61,456 nt of DNA from an uncultured Candidatus Melainabacteria bacterium (GTDB lineage Bacteria; Cyanobacteriota; Vampirovibrionia; Gastranaerophilales; Gastranaerophilaceae), in the NCBI GenBank assembly GCA_949741915.1, contig CATJOM010000060.1, positions 1-61,456 on the forward strand, given 5' to 3'. This document shows positions 6,847 through 56,488 of this stretch, piece after piece. Every line of letters starts with the position of its first letter. Positions within the stretch are counted from its first letter, which is position 1. Position numbers and translations under genes: made by a program. The notes beneath the pieces are model-generated. The model had not been told where the DNA came from. It saw only the letters and a list, made by a program, of their open reading frames with translations, and ran no database searches.

Positions 6847-7125
6847 ATGAGTGAGGAAAAGATAATAATAACCATCTCCGGGTGTGATAAAGTGGGAATT
6901 GTAGCAAAAATAGCCGCTGCCCTGGCTGATTTAAATGTAAATATTGAAGATATCAAACAGACAATAATGCAGGATTATTTTGTTATGATGATGTTATGCA
7001 GCATTAAAGATGCTAAAAAATCCTTTAAAGAAATCAAAGAGAATATAATAAATTCCGGGCGTGAGCTTGAGATGGAAGTGTGGGTGCAAAGAAAAGAAAT
7101 TTTTGACTCTATGCACTCAATATAG
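6847..7125 (+). CDS. UPF0237 ACT-domain protein
   Basis: A single ACT domain of 92 residues: ITISGCDKVGIVAKIAAALADLNVNIEDI near the N-terminus is the usual beta-alpha-beta ligand-binding core. I take the ATG at 6847, preceded by AAGGAAA, rather than the TTG six codons upstream. In many bacteria this family is encoded next to UPF0210, as here (148 bp downstream), which suggests that the ACT protein senses an amino acid or similar ligand for its partner. The role is unproven in general. Confidence 0.88.
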   Translation: MSEEKIIITISGCDKVGIVAKIAAALADLNVNIEDIKQTIMQDYFVMMMLCSIKDAKKSFKEIKENIINSGRELEMEVWVQRKEIFDSMHSI

Positions 7126-7273
7126 GCTGTCTTAAAAAGCTTGTATCTGTCTCTCTTAGTGCTTGTGAAATGTCCTATTATGCAATGTAGCTCCGTTTTT
7201 AAGTTTTTTGACACATTTTTACTGCCACTGCCTATATCTATAACTGTTTACTGAAGAATTTGGAAAAATATTT

Positions 7274-8641
7274 ATGAAAGATTTTAACGTACAAAATGTA
7301 ATAGAAACAATTGAGATGATTAAGGTTCATCACCTTGATATAAGAACCGTAACCCTCTCCTTGAGCCTTAGAGACTGTGCTGGCGATGATACAAAGACTG
7401 TAGGCAGAAAAATTTACGATAAAATCCTAAAGCACGCTAAAAATCTTGCAAAATATGCAGATGATTTAGAGAATGAATTCTCCATCCCTATAATAAACAA
7501 AAGAATAGCTGTAACGCCAATTTCCATTGTGGCAGAATCTTGCACCAATCCTGATTTTGTTTATCTTGCCCAAATTCTAGATAAGGCAGCAAATGAAGTG
7601 GGAATTGACTTTATAGGTGGTTTTTCAGCCCTTGTGGATAAAGGCTGTACAAACGGCGACAAACTCTTTATCGAAAGTATTCCAGAGGCTCTTGCTTCAA
7701 CAAAAAGAGTGTGTTCATCTTTGAATCTAGCAACCTCAAAGGCTGGCATAAATATGGTTGGTGTGCTAAAAACCGCTAATGTAATTAAAAAAGCTGCCGA
7801 ATTAACAAAAGATGCTGATGGCCTTGGCGCAGCAAAGTTTGTGGCGTTTTGTAATTCTGTAACTGATAATCCATTTATGGCAGGTGCATACTGTGGCATT
7901 AATGAACCAGAAGTTGCCCTGAATGTGGGTGTTTCAGGCCCTGGTGTTGTAAGATGGGCAATAGAAAATATGCCAAAAACTGCTGATTTAGGCGAAGTAG
8001 CAAACATAATTAAAAAAACCGCTTTTAAAATAACAACAACTGGTGAATTAATTGGAAGGCGTTTGGCTGAAAGACTCAATATACCATTTGGCGTAATTGA
8101 CCTATCTTTAGCCCCAACCCCTGCTGAAGGAGACAGTGTTGCAGGCATTTTTGAAGCCATGGGGCTTGAAGCAGCAGGTGCTCACGGTACAACAGCCGCG
8201 CTTGCTATGTTAAATGATGCCGTAAAAAAAGGCGGCATTATGGCATCAAGCTATGTGGGAGGCCTTTCAGGTGCATTTATTCCTGTATCAGAGGATGCTG
8301 GTATGATAAAAGCTGCTCGTGATGGTGTTCTTACTATTGATAAACTTGAAGCTATGACAAGTGTTTGTTCTGTTGGGCTTGATATGATAGCTATTCCCGG
8401 AGATACACCAGCTTCAACTATTGCAGGTATTATTGCAGATGAAATGGCAATAGGCATGATAAATAAAAAAACTACAGCAGTAAGGATTATTCCGGTGCCT
8501 GGAAAAAAAGTAGGCGAAGCCGCCAAATTTGGCGGTTTGCTTGGTGAAGCACCAATTATGCCAACCAGCAGGCTTAATTCAAGTGTTTTTGTAAACCGTC
8601 TTGGTAGAATTCCTGCACCTTTGCATAGTTTGAATAATTAA
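7274..8641 (+). CDS. UPF0210 (DUF711) family protein
   Basis: The 455-residue protein matches the UPF0210/DUF711 family in length and motifs: [15 protein letters not shown] near residue 17, an FIGGFSALV block near 115, a GVSGPGVV segment near 220 and a Gly/Ala-rich C-terminal half ending in LGEAPIMP. The family is structurally related to pyruvate formate-lyase-like barrels, but no reaction is established. Its usual partner, the UPF0237 ACT protein, precedes it. A hairpin terminator follows at 8760. Confidence 0.9.
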
Positions 8642-24073: not shown

Positions 24074-25215
24074 ATATCCTTCTTGTAACCGATTTATACC
24101 CGCTTTTTGAAAATGAAGCTGGGATTCCTTTAACTGTAAAGGACTTTGCTCTTGGCTTTGAAAAAGAAGGCTGCACCGTAAAGGTTTTTCGCCCAAATTT
24201 TATGCTTAATGTATTTTTAAGGGGCAGGAAACTCTATCGAAATGGCAAATATGCTGATAAAGGTTCCAATATTCAAATTTTCAACAAAAATTTTCTTTTT
24301 CCATTTAGAAGAAACAGTGTCATTAGGGCATGCAAAAAATACTTTAAGGATGAAAAATTTGACGTTATATTGGCCCATATGCCCTCTGGAATTTTGTGTG
24401 CAGATATAATATCAAAAGCATGGAACATTCCTATGCTCGGCGCAGTTCACGCTAGTGATATTAAGGTTTTATCCGATATAAAATATGTTTTCTTCAAACA
24501 GAGGATGATTGAGGCTTATAAAAATTGCAAATGCATTTTACCAAGATCCTTTTGGCTGAGAGATAAAATTAAAAAATTAATCCCAGGACTTGAAAAACCC
24601 TGTGAAATCATTTATTCGGGTGTTCCTATTAAAATAATAGAACAGAACGAAAAAATAGAGCCCAAAAAATTCAATTCCAAAAAAGCTAAAATTTTAACTG
24701 TCTCAAGCTTGATAAAAAGGAAGAATATTAACTCCTTGATTTTGGCTTTTAAAAAATTGCAGAAAAAATATCCGAATATATCTCTTGAAATAATTGGCGA
24801 TGGCAAATTAAGAGAAAAACTTGAAATTATTAATGTTAAAAGCAAGGCTTGTGCCAAGTTTTTAGGACGCCTTCCAAAAGATGAAGTTTTTAAAAAGATG
24901 AGAGAATCAGATATTTTTATACTACCATCAAAGAAGGAAACCTTTGGAATGGTTTATATGGAGGCTCTATCATCAGGTATGGTTGTGTGCTGCACTAAAA
25001 ATTCCGGCATAGATGGTATCTTGAAAGATGGAGAAAATGGCTTTTTAATAAAGCCTGATAAAAAAAATATTCATAAAGCTCTTGAAAAAATTTTAAAGCT
25101 AAAGCCCAAAGGGTTTGAAGAAATATCCAAAAATGCCTTAATAACGGCTAAAATGTTTTCTTATGAAAATTCAATAAAAAATTATTTGGAAAAAATTGAA
25201 CTTTTTAGGCTATAA
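24070..25215 (+). CDS. Glycosyltransferase family 4 (GT-B)
   Basis: The 381-residue protein starts with MNILLVTDLYPLFENEAGIP, as in GT4 enzymes, has the acceptor-side loop GAVHASDIKVL near residue 138, and shows the C-terminal donor-binding domain with KILTVSSLIKRKN near 207, IIGDGKLREKL near 240 and the KKETFGMVYMEALSSG retaining-GT4 E-x7-E motif near 288. It is probably a cytosolic enzyme of surface glycan synthesis. It overlaps glyS by 4 bp (ATGA), so translation is likely coupled, although the functions are unrelated. Confidence 0.88.
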   Translation: MNILLVTDLYPLFENEAGIPLTVKDFALGFEKEGCTVKVFRPNFMLNVFLRGRKLYRNGKYADKGSNIQIFNKNFLFPFRRNSVIRACKKYFKDEKFDVILAHMPSGILCADIISKAWNIPMLGAVHASDIKVLSDIKYVFFKQRMIEAYKNCKCILPRSFWLRDKIKKLIPGLEKPCEIIYSGVPIKIIEQNEKIEPKKFNSKKAKILTVSSLIKRKNINSLILAFKKLQKKYPNISLEIIGDGKLREKLEIINVKSKACAKFLGRLPKDEVFKKMRESDIFILPSKKETFGMVYMEALSSGMVVCCTKNSGIDGILKDGENGFLIKPDKKNIHKALEKILKLKPKGFEEISKNALITAKMFSYENSIKNYLEKIELFRL

Positions 25216-40574: not shown

Positions 40575-40688
40575 TTTTTTCCGCCTATGGGTATTTCGCC
40601 CCGACGGGCTCAATTATCCTACGGCGGTTATCGACAGTTGCGTTTGTGTCTTGCTCATCGCAAGCCCCAAACTCACTCCGGCTTACGC
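40575..40688 (-). repeat. 114-bp palindrome-containing element, copy 1
   Basis: This unit aligns without gaps to the copy at 49016 over all 114 bases, with 25 differences by my count. Conserved parts are the head GCGTAAGCC, an internal hairpin (GTTTG/CAAAC outer and CTTGC/GCAAG inner stem), the box AGGAYAATTGAG, a GC-rich hairpin and the tail AGGCGGAA. It begins 3 bp after the gpF stop codon, reading in the same direction. The frame that is open in the other copies contains one TAG here and has no start codon. Confidence 0.85.
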
Positions 40689-40691
40689 TTT

Positions 40692-42005
40692 CTATTTTAT
40701 TTTTTTATACATCTTTATATTCTTAAATGAGTTTCTGTTTACAATACTTGCTGTCGCTATATAGTTTACAGGTTTTTGCTTATTTAGTTTATTTAATTTT
40801 GTACATACTTTTATACACTTATTATTCTCTATATTCTTGATATAGATTAGGCCTGTGGCGTTTTTGCTTGTATAATCAATATAAACTTCATCCGGATTGT
40901 TAATTATATTATATATATCAAACATCTCACCATCCGAGAGTTTTTGTTTTTCAATCTTAACGTTTCCAATAATATGGCCTATTCTGTTATCCTGCAGCAC
41001 TATAATTGGTGTTTGGGGTTTAATATTGTCTTGATGAAGAGCATTCAAAATATCCGGGTTTATCCAGGTAACTGTTTTTTCTATCCCTCTTGTCTTAAAG
41101 CCCGATTTTATAACATTAGATATAAAGGTGTTGCAAACATCACTGTTGTGAAGATTTTGTGCCATCTCCGAAATGAAGGTGTCTTTTAAATTTTGGGGTA
41201 AATCTTTAATTTTTGAATAAGCCTGGACATCTAGACCCCAAGCACACTTGCCCGGGTTTGTTGACCATCCTGCATCTGCTGCAAATTTAAATCGTTTGCC
41301 GCCAATCGTATAATCATATACAGCGACCGGTTTTTCTAATCCGGTTTCTTTATCAACAACGACAAATTTATGCGATATGTTGCCACTACTCTTTTCTACG
41401 GTTAACCCAAGGTGCTTGAGCTTTGAAGCACTTAAACTTCTCACTGTACATCTGCAGCCCCAGCCGTTTGGCGGATAAAAATACAGCCAAAACTCATCAT
41501 CATATCTAAATATTTTTTGATGTAGCGCTTTATGTTCAGGGCGTGTTACACTATCTATGACACAGACATACTGTAAATATGGTGCAATATCTGCGTTTTC
41601 AAGCTGCTCCAAATATCTTCCGGCGTTATAGGCGCTTTGAATATTCTGTTTGTAAATTGTTTTAACACGGTATTTTGAACCTAGCTGTATAGTTTTCTTT
41701 TCGCCGTTTTTATCCTCAACTTCTCTTTTACCCCACCAGCCCTTTTCAATAAAAAGTTTTTCAACCTCTTTTTGTGTTGTTCTTGCGCTTGTGCCGTTCT
41801 TTAAGGAATTTTCAAGGATTTCTTTTGTATCCCGAAGCAGGTCCGCCTTTGCCATTTTAGCTACAGTAAAAGCCTTAGCATGGGCATCTTCCCACATATC
41901 GTACCAGTTATTAGATATCTTATATCCTTTATTTTCAAGATATTTAACAGCCCTTTCAGGAGGCATTTTGAAGGCAAGAGCCAGATTAACATCCTCTTTT
42001 GTCAT
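40692..42005 (-). CDS. Head morphogenesis protein (Mu gpF family) with C-terminal nuclease-like domain
   Basis: 437 residues. The first 240 match the SPP1 gp7/Mu gpF minor head family (VKTIYKQNIQSAYNAGRY, a VTRPEHKALHQKIFRYDDEFW block, and NGWGCRCTVRSLS). The C-terminal 150 (VTWINPDILNALHQDN to the end) resemble the Barnase/EndoU/ColicinE5-RelE-like (PBECR) domains found attached to gpF proteins, with IIVLQDN, VYIDYTS and an ATASIVNRNSF end. Such a domain could act on host nucleic acid after delivery with the virion. The tail domain call is moderate. The gene overlaps the portal gene by 4 bp. Confidence 0.82.
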   Translation of the reverse strand: MTKEDVNLALAFKMPPERAVKYLENKGYKISNNWYDMWEDAHAKAFTVAKMAKADLLRDTKEILENSLKNGTSARTTQKEVEKLFIEKGWWGKREVEDKNGEKKTIQLGSKYRVKTIYKQNIQSAYNAGRYLEQLENADIAPYLQYVCVIDSVTRPEHKALHQKIFRYDDEFWLYFYPPNGWGCRCTVRSLSASKLKHLGLTVEKSSGNISHKFVVVDKETGLEKPVAVYDYTIGGKRFKFAADAGWSTNPGKCAWGLDVQAYSKIKDLPQNLKDTFISEMAQNLHNSDVCNTFISNVIKSGFKTRGIEKTVTWINPDILNALHQDNIKPQTPIIVLQDNRIGHIIGNVKIEKQKLSDGEMFDIYNIINNPDEVYIDYTSKNATGLIYIKNIENNKCIKVCTKLNKLNKQKPVNYIATASIVNRNSFKNIKMYKKIK

Positions 42006-48885: not shown

Positions 48886-49500
48886 ATGCAAAAAACAATT
48901 TATAAGGTGTTAAAGCCCATAAGATATGAAGGCAAAAAATACGAACCAGGCAGACTAATTCCGCTTGGCGGGGATGTCGATACTAATGAGCTCCTTGAGC
49001 TTGGAGTTATTGAAAGCGCAAGCCAGGGTGAGTTTGTAGCTTGCGATAAGCAAGATGCGAACGCAACTATTGATGACCACTGCAGGACAATTGAGCGCCC
49101 GGGCGCGAAATGCCCACAGGCGGAAGGAAGTGCAAGCCAGGGTGAAGACAAAAATTATGACACAGTAAACACTCCTAAAACCAGCGCACGAACAAATGGC
49201 ACCATCGTAAACCCGGATGGTGAAGATGGTGTCATTTTAAATCAACATTCTAATGACATCGAGAGTGATTCATCCAATCTGAATGAGCAGAGCCAACCTG
49301 AATCACAAACACCTTCTAATGATACCGAATATTCTTTTCTGACAGCGAATAAGCAGCTTGAGTACATACAAAATATTGCAGACACTGCCATTCTGGAAGA
49401 GCTTTTAGAGGAGTCCAAGGCAAGCGTTCAAAAAGTAATCAAGAAAAGGATTAAAGACACAAAAACCGCAACACCCGAAGGGCTGGAGAATAAATCATAA
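48886..49500 (+). CDS. gp35-like virion protein with in-frame 114-bp repeat insertion
   Basis: 204 residues. The N-terminal 43 form a small beta domain (YKVLKPIRYEGKKYEPGRLIPLGG, then LLELGVIE), typical of the short protein after the capsid gene. Residues 44-81 are encoded by a 114-bp repeat unit inserted in frame, followed by a second copy of its first residues (SASQGE). A Ser/Asn/Glu-rich linker leads to a helical C-terminus (YIQNIADTAILEELLEESKASVQKVIKKRI) that resembles Mu gp35's LEM/HeH-like end. The insert sits between two domains, where it is likely tolerated. Confidence 0.7.
   Translation: MQKTIYKVLKPIRYEGKKYEPGRLIPLGGDVDTNELLELGVIESASQGEFVACDKQDANATIDDHCRTIERPGAKCPQAEGSASQGEDKNYDTVNTPKTSARTNGTIVNPDGEDGVILNQHSNDIESDSSNLNEQSQPESQTPSNDTEYSFLTANKQLEYIQNIADTAILEELLEESKASVQKVIKKRIKDTKTATPEGLENKS
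49016..49129 (+). repeat. 114-bp palindrome-containing element, copy 2, inside a coding region
   Basis: This unit has head GCGCAAGCCAGGGTGA and a hairpin (GTTTG/CGAAC outer, CTTGC/GCAAG inner). A box AGGACAATTGAG, the perfect palindrome GCGCCCGGGCGC, and tail AGGCGGAAGGAA follow. A 16-base repeat of the head (GTGCAAGCCAGGGTGA, 49130-49145) follows exactly 114 bp after the first. It is a whole number of codons and keeps the frame of the surrounding gene, adding 38 residues including DANATIDDHCRTIE. Confidence 0.85.
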
Positions 49501-53324: not shown

Positions 53325-55748
53325 GTGACAGCAAACACATTGCAATTGAATATGTTTTTAAGGGCAAAGGATGGACTATCCGGCATAGTTCATTCTGCTG
53401 TCACTAAATCTGACAAAGATTTTGAAGAGCTGCGCAAAAAAATCCAAAAAACATCTGAAACGCTTGATAAAGTTGGCAAAGGAGCTCTTGTTGCAGGAGG
53501 CACATTAACAGCAATAAGCGCAGTAAACCTTAAGAGCGCCGCTGACTTTGAAACCGGAATGTCCAGTGTATCTACATTGATTGACACGAATGTTGAAAAT
53601 CTAGGCGCTATGAATAAAGAGGTTTTAAACATTGCAAAGCGCACACCCGTTGCCTTAAATGATCTGACAACATCTTTATATGACATAAGATCTGCCGGTG
53701 TTGCTGCAGAAAATCAATTCACTGTTCTTGAAAAATCAGCCCAATTAGGTGTTGCCGGGCTGGGTTCAACCGGTGAAGCGGTTGACCTTGTTACTTCATC
53801 ATTAAATGCATTTCAACTAAAGGGTGAAAAGGCCGACAGAGTATATGACACTATCTTTAAGACCGTAAAATACGGAAAAACAACAATTTCAGGAATTGCA
53901 CAGGGTTTTGGTTCTGTTGCAGGAACGGTGGCAGCTGCAGGGATAGAACTTGATGATTATATGGCAACTGTTGCAGCACTCACAACCACAGGACAGCCTG
54001 CAGCGCAAGCCCATACACAAATCAAGGCTGCGATTTCAGGAATGACAAGGGAAACAAAGGAATCCAAAAAAGTATTGCATTCATTGGGCGCGAAGAATTT
54101 TAAAGACCTCGTTCAAAAATCAGGCGGGATGGTTAGTGCCTTTGCAAAGATTACAAAACAGGTTCAGGGTAATGATGCAGCGATATTGCAGTTGTTTGGC
54201 TCAACCGAAGCATACAACGCAGTTGTCGGCATCACAACTAACCAACATAAAGCATATTTAGATACCATTAACGCCATGAGAAACGGCCCATCCCTTGTGG
54301 ATGAAGCATACATTAAAAAACTAAATACAGTTAATGCGGGTTTGCAAAGGTTTTCTAATTATGTTCAAAAAATATCAATAGATTTTGGCACATATTTAAT
54401 GCCGTATTTTAATAAATTCCTTGATATTGCAGGCAAAGGACTTGACTTTATAGACAGGCTTCCGGATGGTGTTAAAAGTTTTATGGCAGTATCAGCAGTG
54501 GCTACAGGAATAGGTCTGACTCTTTTTGGAACCCTCTCAATAGGCGCAGGAGCTGCAGTTAGAGGGTTTGACAATATGCTTGTTGCCCATAGAAGATTAA
54601 GCCGCTTTATGAGCAATAACAATTTTAGAATGCCAACGTTTGAGCTTGGAACATTTATGGGGAATATCAATAATGTTAAAGCGGCGTGGATTGGCGCCTG
54701 TACCGATATTGCAGCCCAGTTTATAGCAATGAAGTCCAGCGCAATTAAATCCATAGGCGGTTTGAGTGCAGCACTAAATGGCATGGCGGCTTCATATGCT
54801 GCAGCACCTGATAAATTCGCCTGGGCTCTTAATGGTATGGGCAATGCATTAAAATCTCCGATAAAAGGTTTGTGGGGTGCAACAAGAGCTGCATTGGCAT
54901 TTACTGGAGCACTCTTGACAAATCCCGTAACCTGGGTGGTGGGTGCTGTTGTTGTAGGTGCTGCTTTAATCTACAAATATTGGAAGCCCATATCGGGATT
55001 CTTTAAAGGAGCTTGGGAAGGAATTGTTGAAGCAACAAAGCCTCTGCATCCAATGTTTAATAAGATAGGACAAGCAATTAAACCAATTGTAGACTGGTTT
55101 AAAGCCCTAATAAAACCTGTTGAAGACGTTGATGGCAAGGCATTTAACTTGGGTAAAACCATAGGTACCACTATTGGCGGGGCCATAGTTTCTATGTTTA
55201 AATTTGGCAAATCAGTTGCTGACGCTATTAGTGGTGCTGTCAAATGGTTTATGGATTTACAGAAAGCCATGTGGAATGTTTTTAAATGGCTTAACCCTTT
55301 GTATCTTGGTTTTAGGGCCATTAAAGCGGTTGCTTCAAGAAAATCCGGCTCAGCCTTGTATTTAGGATTTACACCATTGAGTGATTCTGTTATACCAGGC
55401 TCTCCCTCTGTGTCTGCTTCACCTCTGCCGGGTTTTGCTGCAGGCGGCTTTACAAATGGTCTAAGTATTGCAGGTGAAGATGGCAAAGAGGCTGTAATAT
55501 CATTTAATCCGGTACACAGGAGCAGAAATGTCGGTATTTGGCAGCAGGCAGGCAGTATGCTTGGCATTAATGAGGATAGCAACAATAATGAGACCATTGT
55601 GCTTCGTTATGCCCCGGTTATCCAGTTAATGGGCGACCTTAAAGAAGCTCCCGCGTGGCTTTTAAAACTTCTTGATGAGCACACAAAGAAAATTTTAAGG
55701 CTGCTCGAAGCAAGAGAGAAGCGCAGAAAGGCAGGTGCTTATGCTTAG
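53325..55748 (+). CDS. Tail tape measure protein
   Basis: 807 residues. The N-terminal third matches the TP901 tape measure family (AVNLKSAADFETGMSSVSTLID, a VALNDLTTSLYDIRSAGV block, and GQPAAQAHTQIKAAISGM). A long hydrophobic region follows (about 390-410 and 525-555: LLTNPVTWVVGAVVVGAALIY). The C-terminus has ISGEDGKEAVI-like SIAGEDGKEAVISF. The start is GTG 53325 with GGAAGG upstream. Its stop TAG is created at the border of an inserted 114-bp repeat; before insertion it would have ended AYA-TAA one codon position equivalent. Confidence 0.92.
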   Translation: MTANTLQLNMFLRAKDGLSGIVHSAVTKSDKDFEELRKKIQKTSETLDKVGKGALVAGGTLTAISAVNLKSAADFETGMSSVSTLIDTNVENLGAMNKEVLNIAKRTPVALNDLTTSLYDIRSAGVAAENQFTVLEKSAQLGVAGLGSTGEAVDLVTSSLNAFQLKGEKADRVYDTIFKTVKYGKTTISGIAQGFGSVAGTVAAAGIELDDYMATVAALTTTGQPAAQAHTQIKAAISGMTRETKESKKVLHSLGAKNFKDLVQKSGGMVSAFAKITKQVQGNDAAILQLFGSTEAYNAVVGITTNQHKAYLDTINAMRNGPSLVDEAYIKKLNTVNAGLQRFSNYVQKISIDFGTYLMPYFNKFLDIAGKGLDFIDRLPDGVKSFMAVSAVATGIGLTLFGTLSIGAGAAVRGFDNMLVAHRRLSRFMSNNNFRMPTFELGTFMGNINNVKAAWIGACTDIAAQFIAMKSSAIKSIGGLSAALNGMAASYAAAPDKFAWALNGMGNALKSPIKGLWGATRAALAFTGALLTNPVTWVVGAVVVGAALIYKYWKPISGFFKGAWEGIVEATKPLHPMFNKIGQAIKPIVDWFKALIKPVEDVDGKAFNLGKTIGTTIGGAIVSMFKFGKSVADAISGAVKWFMDLQKAMWNVFKWLNPLYLGFRAIKAVASRKSGSALYLGFTPLSDSVIPGSPSVSASPLPGFAAGGFTNGLSIAGEDGKEAVISFNPVHRSRNVGIWQQAGSMLGINEDSNNNETIVLRYAPVIQLMGDLKEAPAWLLKLLDEHTKKILRLLEAREKRRKAGAYA

Positions 55749-55878
55749 CGTAAGCCAGGGTGAAGCATATGGCAAATGTGAATTTGCCATATGTGAAACC
55801 ATTGATGGGCGACGTAGGACAATCGAGCCCATTGGGACGAGATGTCCACAGGAGCAAGGAGGCAGCATTTATGCTTAA
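55741..55878 (+). CDS. 45-residue ORF formed by the inserted 114-bp element
   Basis: ATG 55741 overlaps the tape measure stop (ATGCTTAG), and the frame runs through the whole repeat unit to TAA 55876-55878, which overlaps the gpU-like start (ATGCTTAA). The peptide reads SVSQGEAYGKCEF, then TIDGRRRTIEP and RCPQEQGG, in the same phase as the repeat that is translated inside the gp35-like gene. Whether it is translated is unproven. Its position would keep ribosomes moving from the tape measure to gpU. Confidence 0.45.
   Translation: MLSVSQGEAYGKCEFAICETIDGRRRTIEPIGTRCPQEQGGSIYA
55748..55861 (+). repeat. 114-bp palindrome-containing element, copy 3, with flanking 9-bp duplication
   Basis: The unit has head GCGTAAGCCAGGGTGA, a perfect 12-bp hairpin (CATATGGCAAAT with ATTTGCCATATG) at the same place as the shorter hairpins of the other copies, box AGGACAATCGAG, the GC-rich arm and tail. 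The 9-mer TTATGCTTA occurs at 55739-55747 and again at 55869-55877, with only a few bases between unit end and second copy. Removing one copy plus the insert would rejoin the tape measure and gpU genes with an ATGCTTAA overlap. Confidence 0.85.
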
Positions 55879-56488
55879 CACCATAGGTAATACCCTAAAT
55901 TTCTTCTTAAATCAAATCGGTGATAATGATGTGACAGAGATTTTTAAGAAGGCTGAAAATACAGATACTGAAACCGAATATGCATATACCGAGCAAAAGG
56001 GCATTGTAGGGAAACCAAGCATTGTGGCAACAAATACCGGATTGCAAAGATATTCTCTTCCAGTTAAATTGCATTTTCAATATTGCAATCCTACAAAAAT
56101 TATTAAAGGTTTAAAGGAATTGGCGGAAAAACATCAGATTATAAGCTATTTTCAGGATGATGAATATAAAGGGGAATTTGTTATTACAAAGATTGTAGAA
56201 AGTCCTAAAAATCATTACAAAGACAACCTTTTATATGCAGAAATCACAGTTGATTTATTGGAATATCCAATCGATCCGGATGAAGAATATACTCCAAATG
56301 CCAATCCAAATAAAAGCTGGCTGGATAATTTGATGGAAGACAAGGCTCCATTAGTTGCAGAACCCGTAAAAAAGGCCACAGGAGCCATTAATAGTGCAGT
56401 TGTACAAACAGTGGCGGATGCTGCGCTTGATTTTGCATTAGGGCAGACTAAAAGTTATGTAAAATCAGGTACAGGAGGACTTTTATGA
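55871..56488 (+). CDS. P2 gpU-like tail protein
   Basis: With ATG 55871 the protein has 205 residues. An upstream in-frame start at 55760 lies inside the repeat and is unlikely to be original. VGKPSIVATNTGLQRYSLPVKLHFQYCNP and LKELAEKHQIISYFQDDEYKGEFVITKI resemble gpU of P2-like tails. The C-terminal 70 residues are an extension. It overlaps the gpX-like gene by 4 bp (ATGA). Confidence 0.78.
   Translation: MLNTIGNTLNFFLNQIGDNDVTEIFKKAENTDTETEYAYTEQKGIVGKPSIVATNTGLQRYSLPVKLHFQYCNPTKIIKGLKELAEKHQIISYFQDDEYKGEFVITKIVESPKNHYKDNLLYAEITVDLLEYPIDPDEEYTPNANPNKSWLDNLMEDKAPLVAEPVKKATGAINSAVVQTVADAALDFALGQTKSYVKSGTGGLL

Follow-up and report, generated by a model that had tools for sequence, protein, structure and literature searches.

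An RNA-structured interspersed repeat of Candidatus Gastranaerophilales at an overlapping stop/start junction in a prophage tail operon

In this study we describe a 121-base unit between the tape-measure gene and the gpU gene of a prophage, found in a window of 61,456 nucleotides (the whole stretch of DNA that was analysed) from an uncultured Candidatus Melainabacteria bacterium. The unit belongs to a family of interspersed repeats, not described before, that occurs in Candidatus Gastranaerophilales and their prophages. It is probably a non-autonomous mobile repeat with a structured RNA that inserted into the overlapping stop/start of tape measure and gpU and duplicated about nine target bases. 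By such an insertion each gene would keep its own terminus, the stop on the left and the start on the right. The coordinates are collected in Table 1.

Table 1. Features of the tape-measure/gpU junction and further copies of the repeat core in the window
Feature	Position	Strand	Basis or remark
Third window copy (core)	40581..40641	-	directly after stop of minus-strand ORF 40692-42005
Second window copy (core), sense	49063..49123	+	in frame inside ORF 48886-49500, own 5' box repeated afterwards
Tape-measure gene	53325..55748	+	stop 55746-55748; ends GCT TAT GCT TAG within left repeat; PF10145, E 1.5e-30; phrog_991
Left TTATGCTTA copy, 9 bases	55739..55747	+	direct reading
45-codon ORF spanning both gene junctions, probably incidental	55741..55878	+	ORF reading; no Pfam/PHROG match
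Inserted unit, 121 bases between both TTATGCTTA copies	55748..55868	+	reading, copies elsewhere and empty site
Conserved 5' box GCGTAAGC, contains TAA; possible GUAA mini-hairpin	55748..55755	+	alignment, folding
P1 long hairpin with GAA/GAA internal loop	55756..55804	+	folding; sequence varies between loci, pairing kept
Conserved core (model R1)	55795..55855	+	72.9 bits, E 5.4e-16 in own genome
P2 helix, strands 55814-55828 (5') and 55837-55849 (3')	55814..55849	+	covariation
AGGAG after P2, Shine-Dalgarno-like	55850..55854	+	invariant part of core 3' end in alignment
AGGAGG, likely gpU ribosome binding site, 8 bases 5' of gpU ATG	55857..55862	+	direct reading
Right TTATGCTTA copy, containing gpU start	55869..55877	+	direct reading
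gpU (Phage_P2_GpU)	55871..56488	+	PF06995, E 1.2e-9

The prophage is of the Mu/P2-like type, with sheath, Gp36 and major head genes 5' of the tape measure. Pfam and PHROGs assign the tape measure to PhageMin_Tail and phrog_991 and place a tail protein X directly after gpU. The initial annotation had claimed that a 9-base repeat, TTATGCTTA, flanks the unit on both sides, that stops and starts overlap at both of its edges, and that the unit is an insertion; all three points held up. Both copies of the repeat were confirmed at 55739-55747 and 55869-55877, the unit lies exactly between the tape-measure stop and the gpU start (ATG 55871), and the only further TTATGCTTA in the window is at 24200. 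At the left edge the tape-measure stop overlaps a new ATG, at the right edge a new stop overlaps the gpU ATG, and the operon 3' of the unit is intact. A unit-free relative was expected to show a single junction copy, and this is what we found in G033, the closest such relative. There, the junction reads TCT TAT GCT TAG TGG with the gpU start ATG CTT AGT inside; a single CTTATGCTTAG is present, the gpU ATG lies inside the tape-measure stop, and one TTATGCTTA serves both genes with stop and start overlapping (locus L211). The element core has no match within 19.5 kb of the G033 prophage region. G033 is the only unit-free relative with the same tape-measure/gpU junction sequence and it is a distant one (gpU identity ~43%). 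The unit is also absent from overlapping TAATG tape-measure/gpU junctions in a second prophage of the same genome (L210) and at L218/L219; a search for gpU relatives in viral contigs returned none. Allowing for a gap, GAGGCAG before the right TTATGCTTA copy resembles AAGGCAG before the left one, a weak match that 2% of random segments equal. Judging from these letters the target duplication at this locus might be longer than nine bases, and the last 13 bases of the unit may belong either to the tail of the element or to such a longer duplication that has since diverged.

Beyond this locus, a second copy of the unit is found in the same genome at 82% identity, and diverged copies occur in relatives. 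In this genome our covariance model detects 11 confident copies, of which three lie in the window, and it matches 38 of the 146 genomes of the same bacterial family, with 0 to 16 copies per genome. Where records are named the hosts are Candidatus Gastranaerophilales, and three viral contigs carry copies as well. Distant blastn searches of phage and plasmid records gave no match to the family, and literature searches brought up nothing relevant to the core sequence or to repeats of Gastranaerophilales. Pattern matches in Azospirillum, Thiotrichaceae, Deltaproteobacteria and Gemmatimonadales reached 13-21 bits only and were judged to be chance; one contig in a 'Clostridia' bin gave 25 bits with the match cut by the contig end, and this contig may be misbinned. 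In an alignment of 12 copies the blocks GCGACGTAGGA and CCACAGGAGC are invariant, and the hairpins that they surround vary. Many copies stand in tandem or close with part of their 5' end repeated.

Several individual copies deserve mention. The sense copy at 49063-49123 adds about 38 codons (SASQGEFVACDKQDANATIDDHCRTIERPGAKCPQAEG) to a gene of the head-tail region, whose G033 orthologue is without the insert, and the minus-strand copy at 40581-40641 is followed by a partial second 5' box. At L114 (~7100-7400) the C-terminal part of a long ORF reads through the element in frame, and a KATADAKASSVEEQ segment is repeated there. In L006, L017, L018, L020 and L021 the 5' hairpin module is joined to other conserved cores, for example CCGCCGTTGNGA...CAGGCGG, which suggests a modular superfamily of repeats in Gastranaerophilales. 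Copies of the element are often found no more than 100 bases from a contig end (L068, L076, L112, L119 and others), and the repeat seems to fragment many Gastranaerophilales genome assemblies.

The RNA of the family has a conserved fold. The unit folds at -54.5 kcal/mol compared with -37.4 kcal/mol for shuffled sequences (z = -5.05, 0 of 200 shuffles as good). Among 104 distinct sequences, in an alignment that was fitted to the model and is thus biased towards it, the core helix has 99.3% standard pairs; an unfitted alignment of 12 sequences agrees. Double-changed cells in the core number 158 as against 47 +/- 6 by shuffling, with every slid control far lower, and one core pair splits into 50 GC and 43 CG. 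Of 99 distinct copies, 94 fold P1 as a single spanning hairpin, and 46 different outer helices were counted. In 89% of the copies the sense strand folds better than the antisense strand (mean difference -4.9 kcal/mol, -1.8 in flank controls), as would be expected if RNA is the selected molecule. At L019 (G066:C8, ~1455-1600) a 29-base direct repeat flanks the core; its 5' copy forms one P1 arm and comes close to being the reverse complement of the other, an arrangement that is a possible hint at a copying mechanism.

Insertion has a polarity. Where an upstream ORF could be assigned, it is co-oriented with the element in 91 cases and opposed in 18. Of 58 sense copies, 15 have the upstream stop directly before the 5' box and 13 have it at the element's own TAA/TGA within the 5' box, and in only about five does it lie 7-60 bases away; some of these 58 upstream genes are homologous, leaving fewer independent cases, perhaps ten. 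In the tape-measure copy the stop is at -2. From their C-termini we take upstream genes to include those for GroEL, phosphoglycerate kinase (pgk), ATP synthase beta (atpD/atpC junction) and YbaB (ybaB/recR), with nrdJ as a further example; these names come from reading the sequences, and the YbaB terminus alone was compared across genomes. The bias in position may reflect targeting or the survival of harmless insertions.

Sense orientation, placement at stop codons and strong covariation would also suit a functional regulatory RNA, that is, a dispersed intercistronic RNA that is not selfish but kept by selection and that determines expression ratios or how mRNA is processed at operon junctions. 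Orthologous copies indeed persist at shared junctions across genomes (L060/L091/L113/L305). However, at almost every site tested the element is present in some species and missing in others, genomes carry anything from none to 16 copies, and tandem arrays and in-gene copies occur. We therefore hold a regulatory function to be conceivable but rather unlikely.

The duplication of target bases can be followed at a second and cleaner filled/empty pair, G019 (L060) against about a dozen relatives (L307-L317), with flanks up to 98-100% identical. Here (and in L305 and L091) the element sits between two phage genes unrelated to tape measure and gpU. The empty junction is GAATGCTTGAATATTAGAGAGATTG, in which the TAG of gene 1 overlaps the TTG start of gene 2; its TTGAATATTAG is gene-1 stop and gene-2 start together and is doubled in the filled state, where TTGAATAT stands on either side of the element. 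In total, 8-10 bases of the overlapping stop/start junction are duplicated, and the logic proposed for tape measure and gpU recurs at an unrelated gene pair. Other sites are less clear. In another prophage (L179) the element is at that prophage's own tape-measure/gpU junction, relatives are empty and a duplication is not clear. On the viral contig L177 the element occupies another tail-gene junction; the upstream gene there now has its end within the element, and CAGGAGG precedes the ATG of the downstream gene; empty relatives again are without a clear duplication. The site L177:1302 was dropped as a tape-measure/gpU case because the upstream gene is not a tape measure. At 1200-1450 of the same contig the element is seen just 5' of gpU, with an upstream non-tape-measure gene reading in frame through it. 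For ybaB/recR in the same genus the spacer of G000 is a different sequence, from which only absence of the element and no duplication can be read, and G000:C48 yielded no usable empty site. Across 47 single copies most show no flank repeat above the shuffled-pair null. Going by the sequences of filled and empty sites, target duplication is seen at two loci, L060 and the tape-measure/gpU junction for which the initial annotation had claimed it, and we do not claim it as a general hallmark of the family.

It might also be asked whether the TTATGCTTA repeat is a target duplication at all. The element could have joined 'TAT GCT TA' to a pre-existing AGGAGG-ATG leader, the repeat then being coincidence or a coding constraint (tape measure ending YA, gpU starting ML). 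The sequence before the right copy is already leader-like, and the missing enrichment of flank repeats across the family points in this direction too. But the single G033 copy serves both genes, L060 shows an independent duplication against near-identical empty sites, and the chance of a window 9-mer reappearing 100-170 bases downstream is about 0.0015, all of which makes such a junction improbable.

A further question is whether the 45-codon ORF, which spans both junctions, is a gene. Its product is MLSVSQGEAYGKCEFAICETIDGRRRTIEPIGTRCPQEQGGSIYA, opening with the ATG at 55741 and closing with TAT GCT TAA (stop 55876-55878), and the gpU ATG falls within these closing codons. It had been proposed as a cistron coupled on both sides: ribosomes coming off the tape measure would start again at the left ATG, read 45 codons and then start once more at gpU. 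This geometry is real, as both overlaps exist and the frame is open end to end, and it is likewise open in the in-gene copy at 49063. The coupling itself did not find support. Only 12 of 83 copies keep this frame open (6 and 1 for the other two sense frames), the 45-residue product has no family match in Pfam or PHROGs, and other copies retain the downstream gene despite stops in the element. As an AGGAGG of its own precedes gpU, uncoupled initiation is no less likely. We thus doubt that a real coupled gene is present, and the ORF is probably incidental. With so few open frames the family would mostly be a translation terminator and not a peptide gene. In 16 of 133 copies a long ORF begins 3-13 bases downstream of AGGAG, compared with 0-8 of 124 at shifted positions; this excess is modest and would fit a role of the element as ribosome-binding site at some junctions. 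An intervening element that splices itself out of the mRNA or that ribosomes bypass, with the empty junction restored either way, would fit the precise insertion between duplicated bases and the strong RNA fold but is most improbable, as Rfam, with its group I/II introns, ribozymes, HEARO and other families, gave no match in the window at the gathering threshold and none that convinced in six loci at E up to 10, and the placement at stop codons, not at random in genes, argues for staying in the mRNA.

In the reading that we prefer, a mobile repeat inserted with a short duplication, the operon would tolerate the insertion through sense-strand stop codons near the 5' end of the element, a compact two-hairpin RNA fold and an unpaired 3' AGGAG. 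The upstream gene could end and the downstream gene could be re-initiated, presumably by ribosomes using the 3' AGGAG. The duplication would arise from staggered cutting. The size of the unit leaves no room for a gene, and we infer that a transposase or another enzyme acts in trans. Reverse transcriptase (PF00078) is absent in the copy-rich genomes G066 (13 copies) and G083 (16 copies), and Y1 transposase (PF01797) is absent in G000, G066, G083 and G057; neither tracks copy number and both were rejected as mobilisers. Our search yielded no other candidate enzyme or element.

As far as features can be compared, the family appears to be of the same general kind as the RPE, BOX, bcr and MITE small interspersed repeats and to fall outside those whose defining features, where tested, it does not show. 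Rickettsia palindromic elements (RPE) are palindromic, dispersed repeats of ~100-150 bases that sometimes lie in frame within genes (PMC10969869). The window copy at 49063 resembles them in its in-frame position inside a gene. However, most copies of our family are closed in every sense frame (the best is open in the 12 of 83 given above, with no conserved peptide frame), in-gene sense copies are few (49063, L114) while the bulk end the upstream gene at the 5' edge of the element, and the hosts belong to another phylum. BOX elements of Streptococcus pneumoniae are small, modular and interspersed, fold as RNA, are co-transcribed with genes and in part contain small ORFs (PMC3049150). In contrast to our family, which prefers the upstream stop codon itself, they have terminal inverted repeats and boxA/B/C modules, a comparison made by description only. 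The bcr1-type repeats of the Bacillus cereus group are dispersed and mobile, with 100-400 bp (PMC6542083), but their mobility is tied to a TTTAT motif, whereas the duplicated target of our family differs at each site. Hairpins, arrays and high copy number are shared with REP/BIME sequences; unlike the REP/BIME-RAYT system, the unit is larger and multi-hairpin, and Y1 transposases are absent from the most copy-rich genomes. MITE-type terminal inverted repeats were not found in the window unit or the aligned copies, where 5' GCGTAAGCC and 3' CCACAGGAGC are not reverse complements. A MITE-like target-site duplication is present at the two loci with empty sites and undetected across the 47 single copies. 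A retroposon or SINE-like kind would require the reverse transcriptase that is absent in G066 and G083.

In conclusion, small interspersed repeats are common in bacteria, and what is unusual in this undescribed family is the address at the upstream stop codon, including overlapping stop/start junctions, together with a conserved RNA fold that ends in a ribosome-binding-like sequence. It might be possible, and we propose this only tentatively, that a mobile RNA module targets stop codons or overlapping junctions and, with its own termination and re-initiation signals, colonises operons, phage tail operons included, without breaking them. If such targeting were real, it would explain how compact operons and phage genomes can be filled by a selfish repeat and still survive, and the element would be a natural portable intercistronic spacer.
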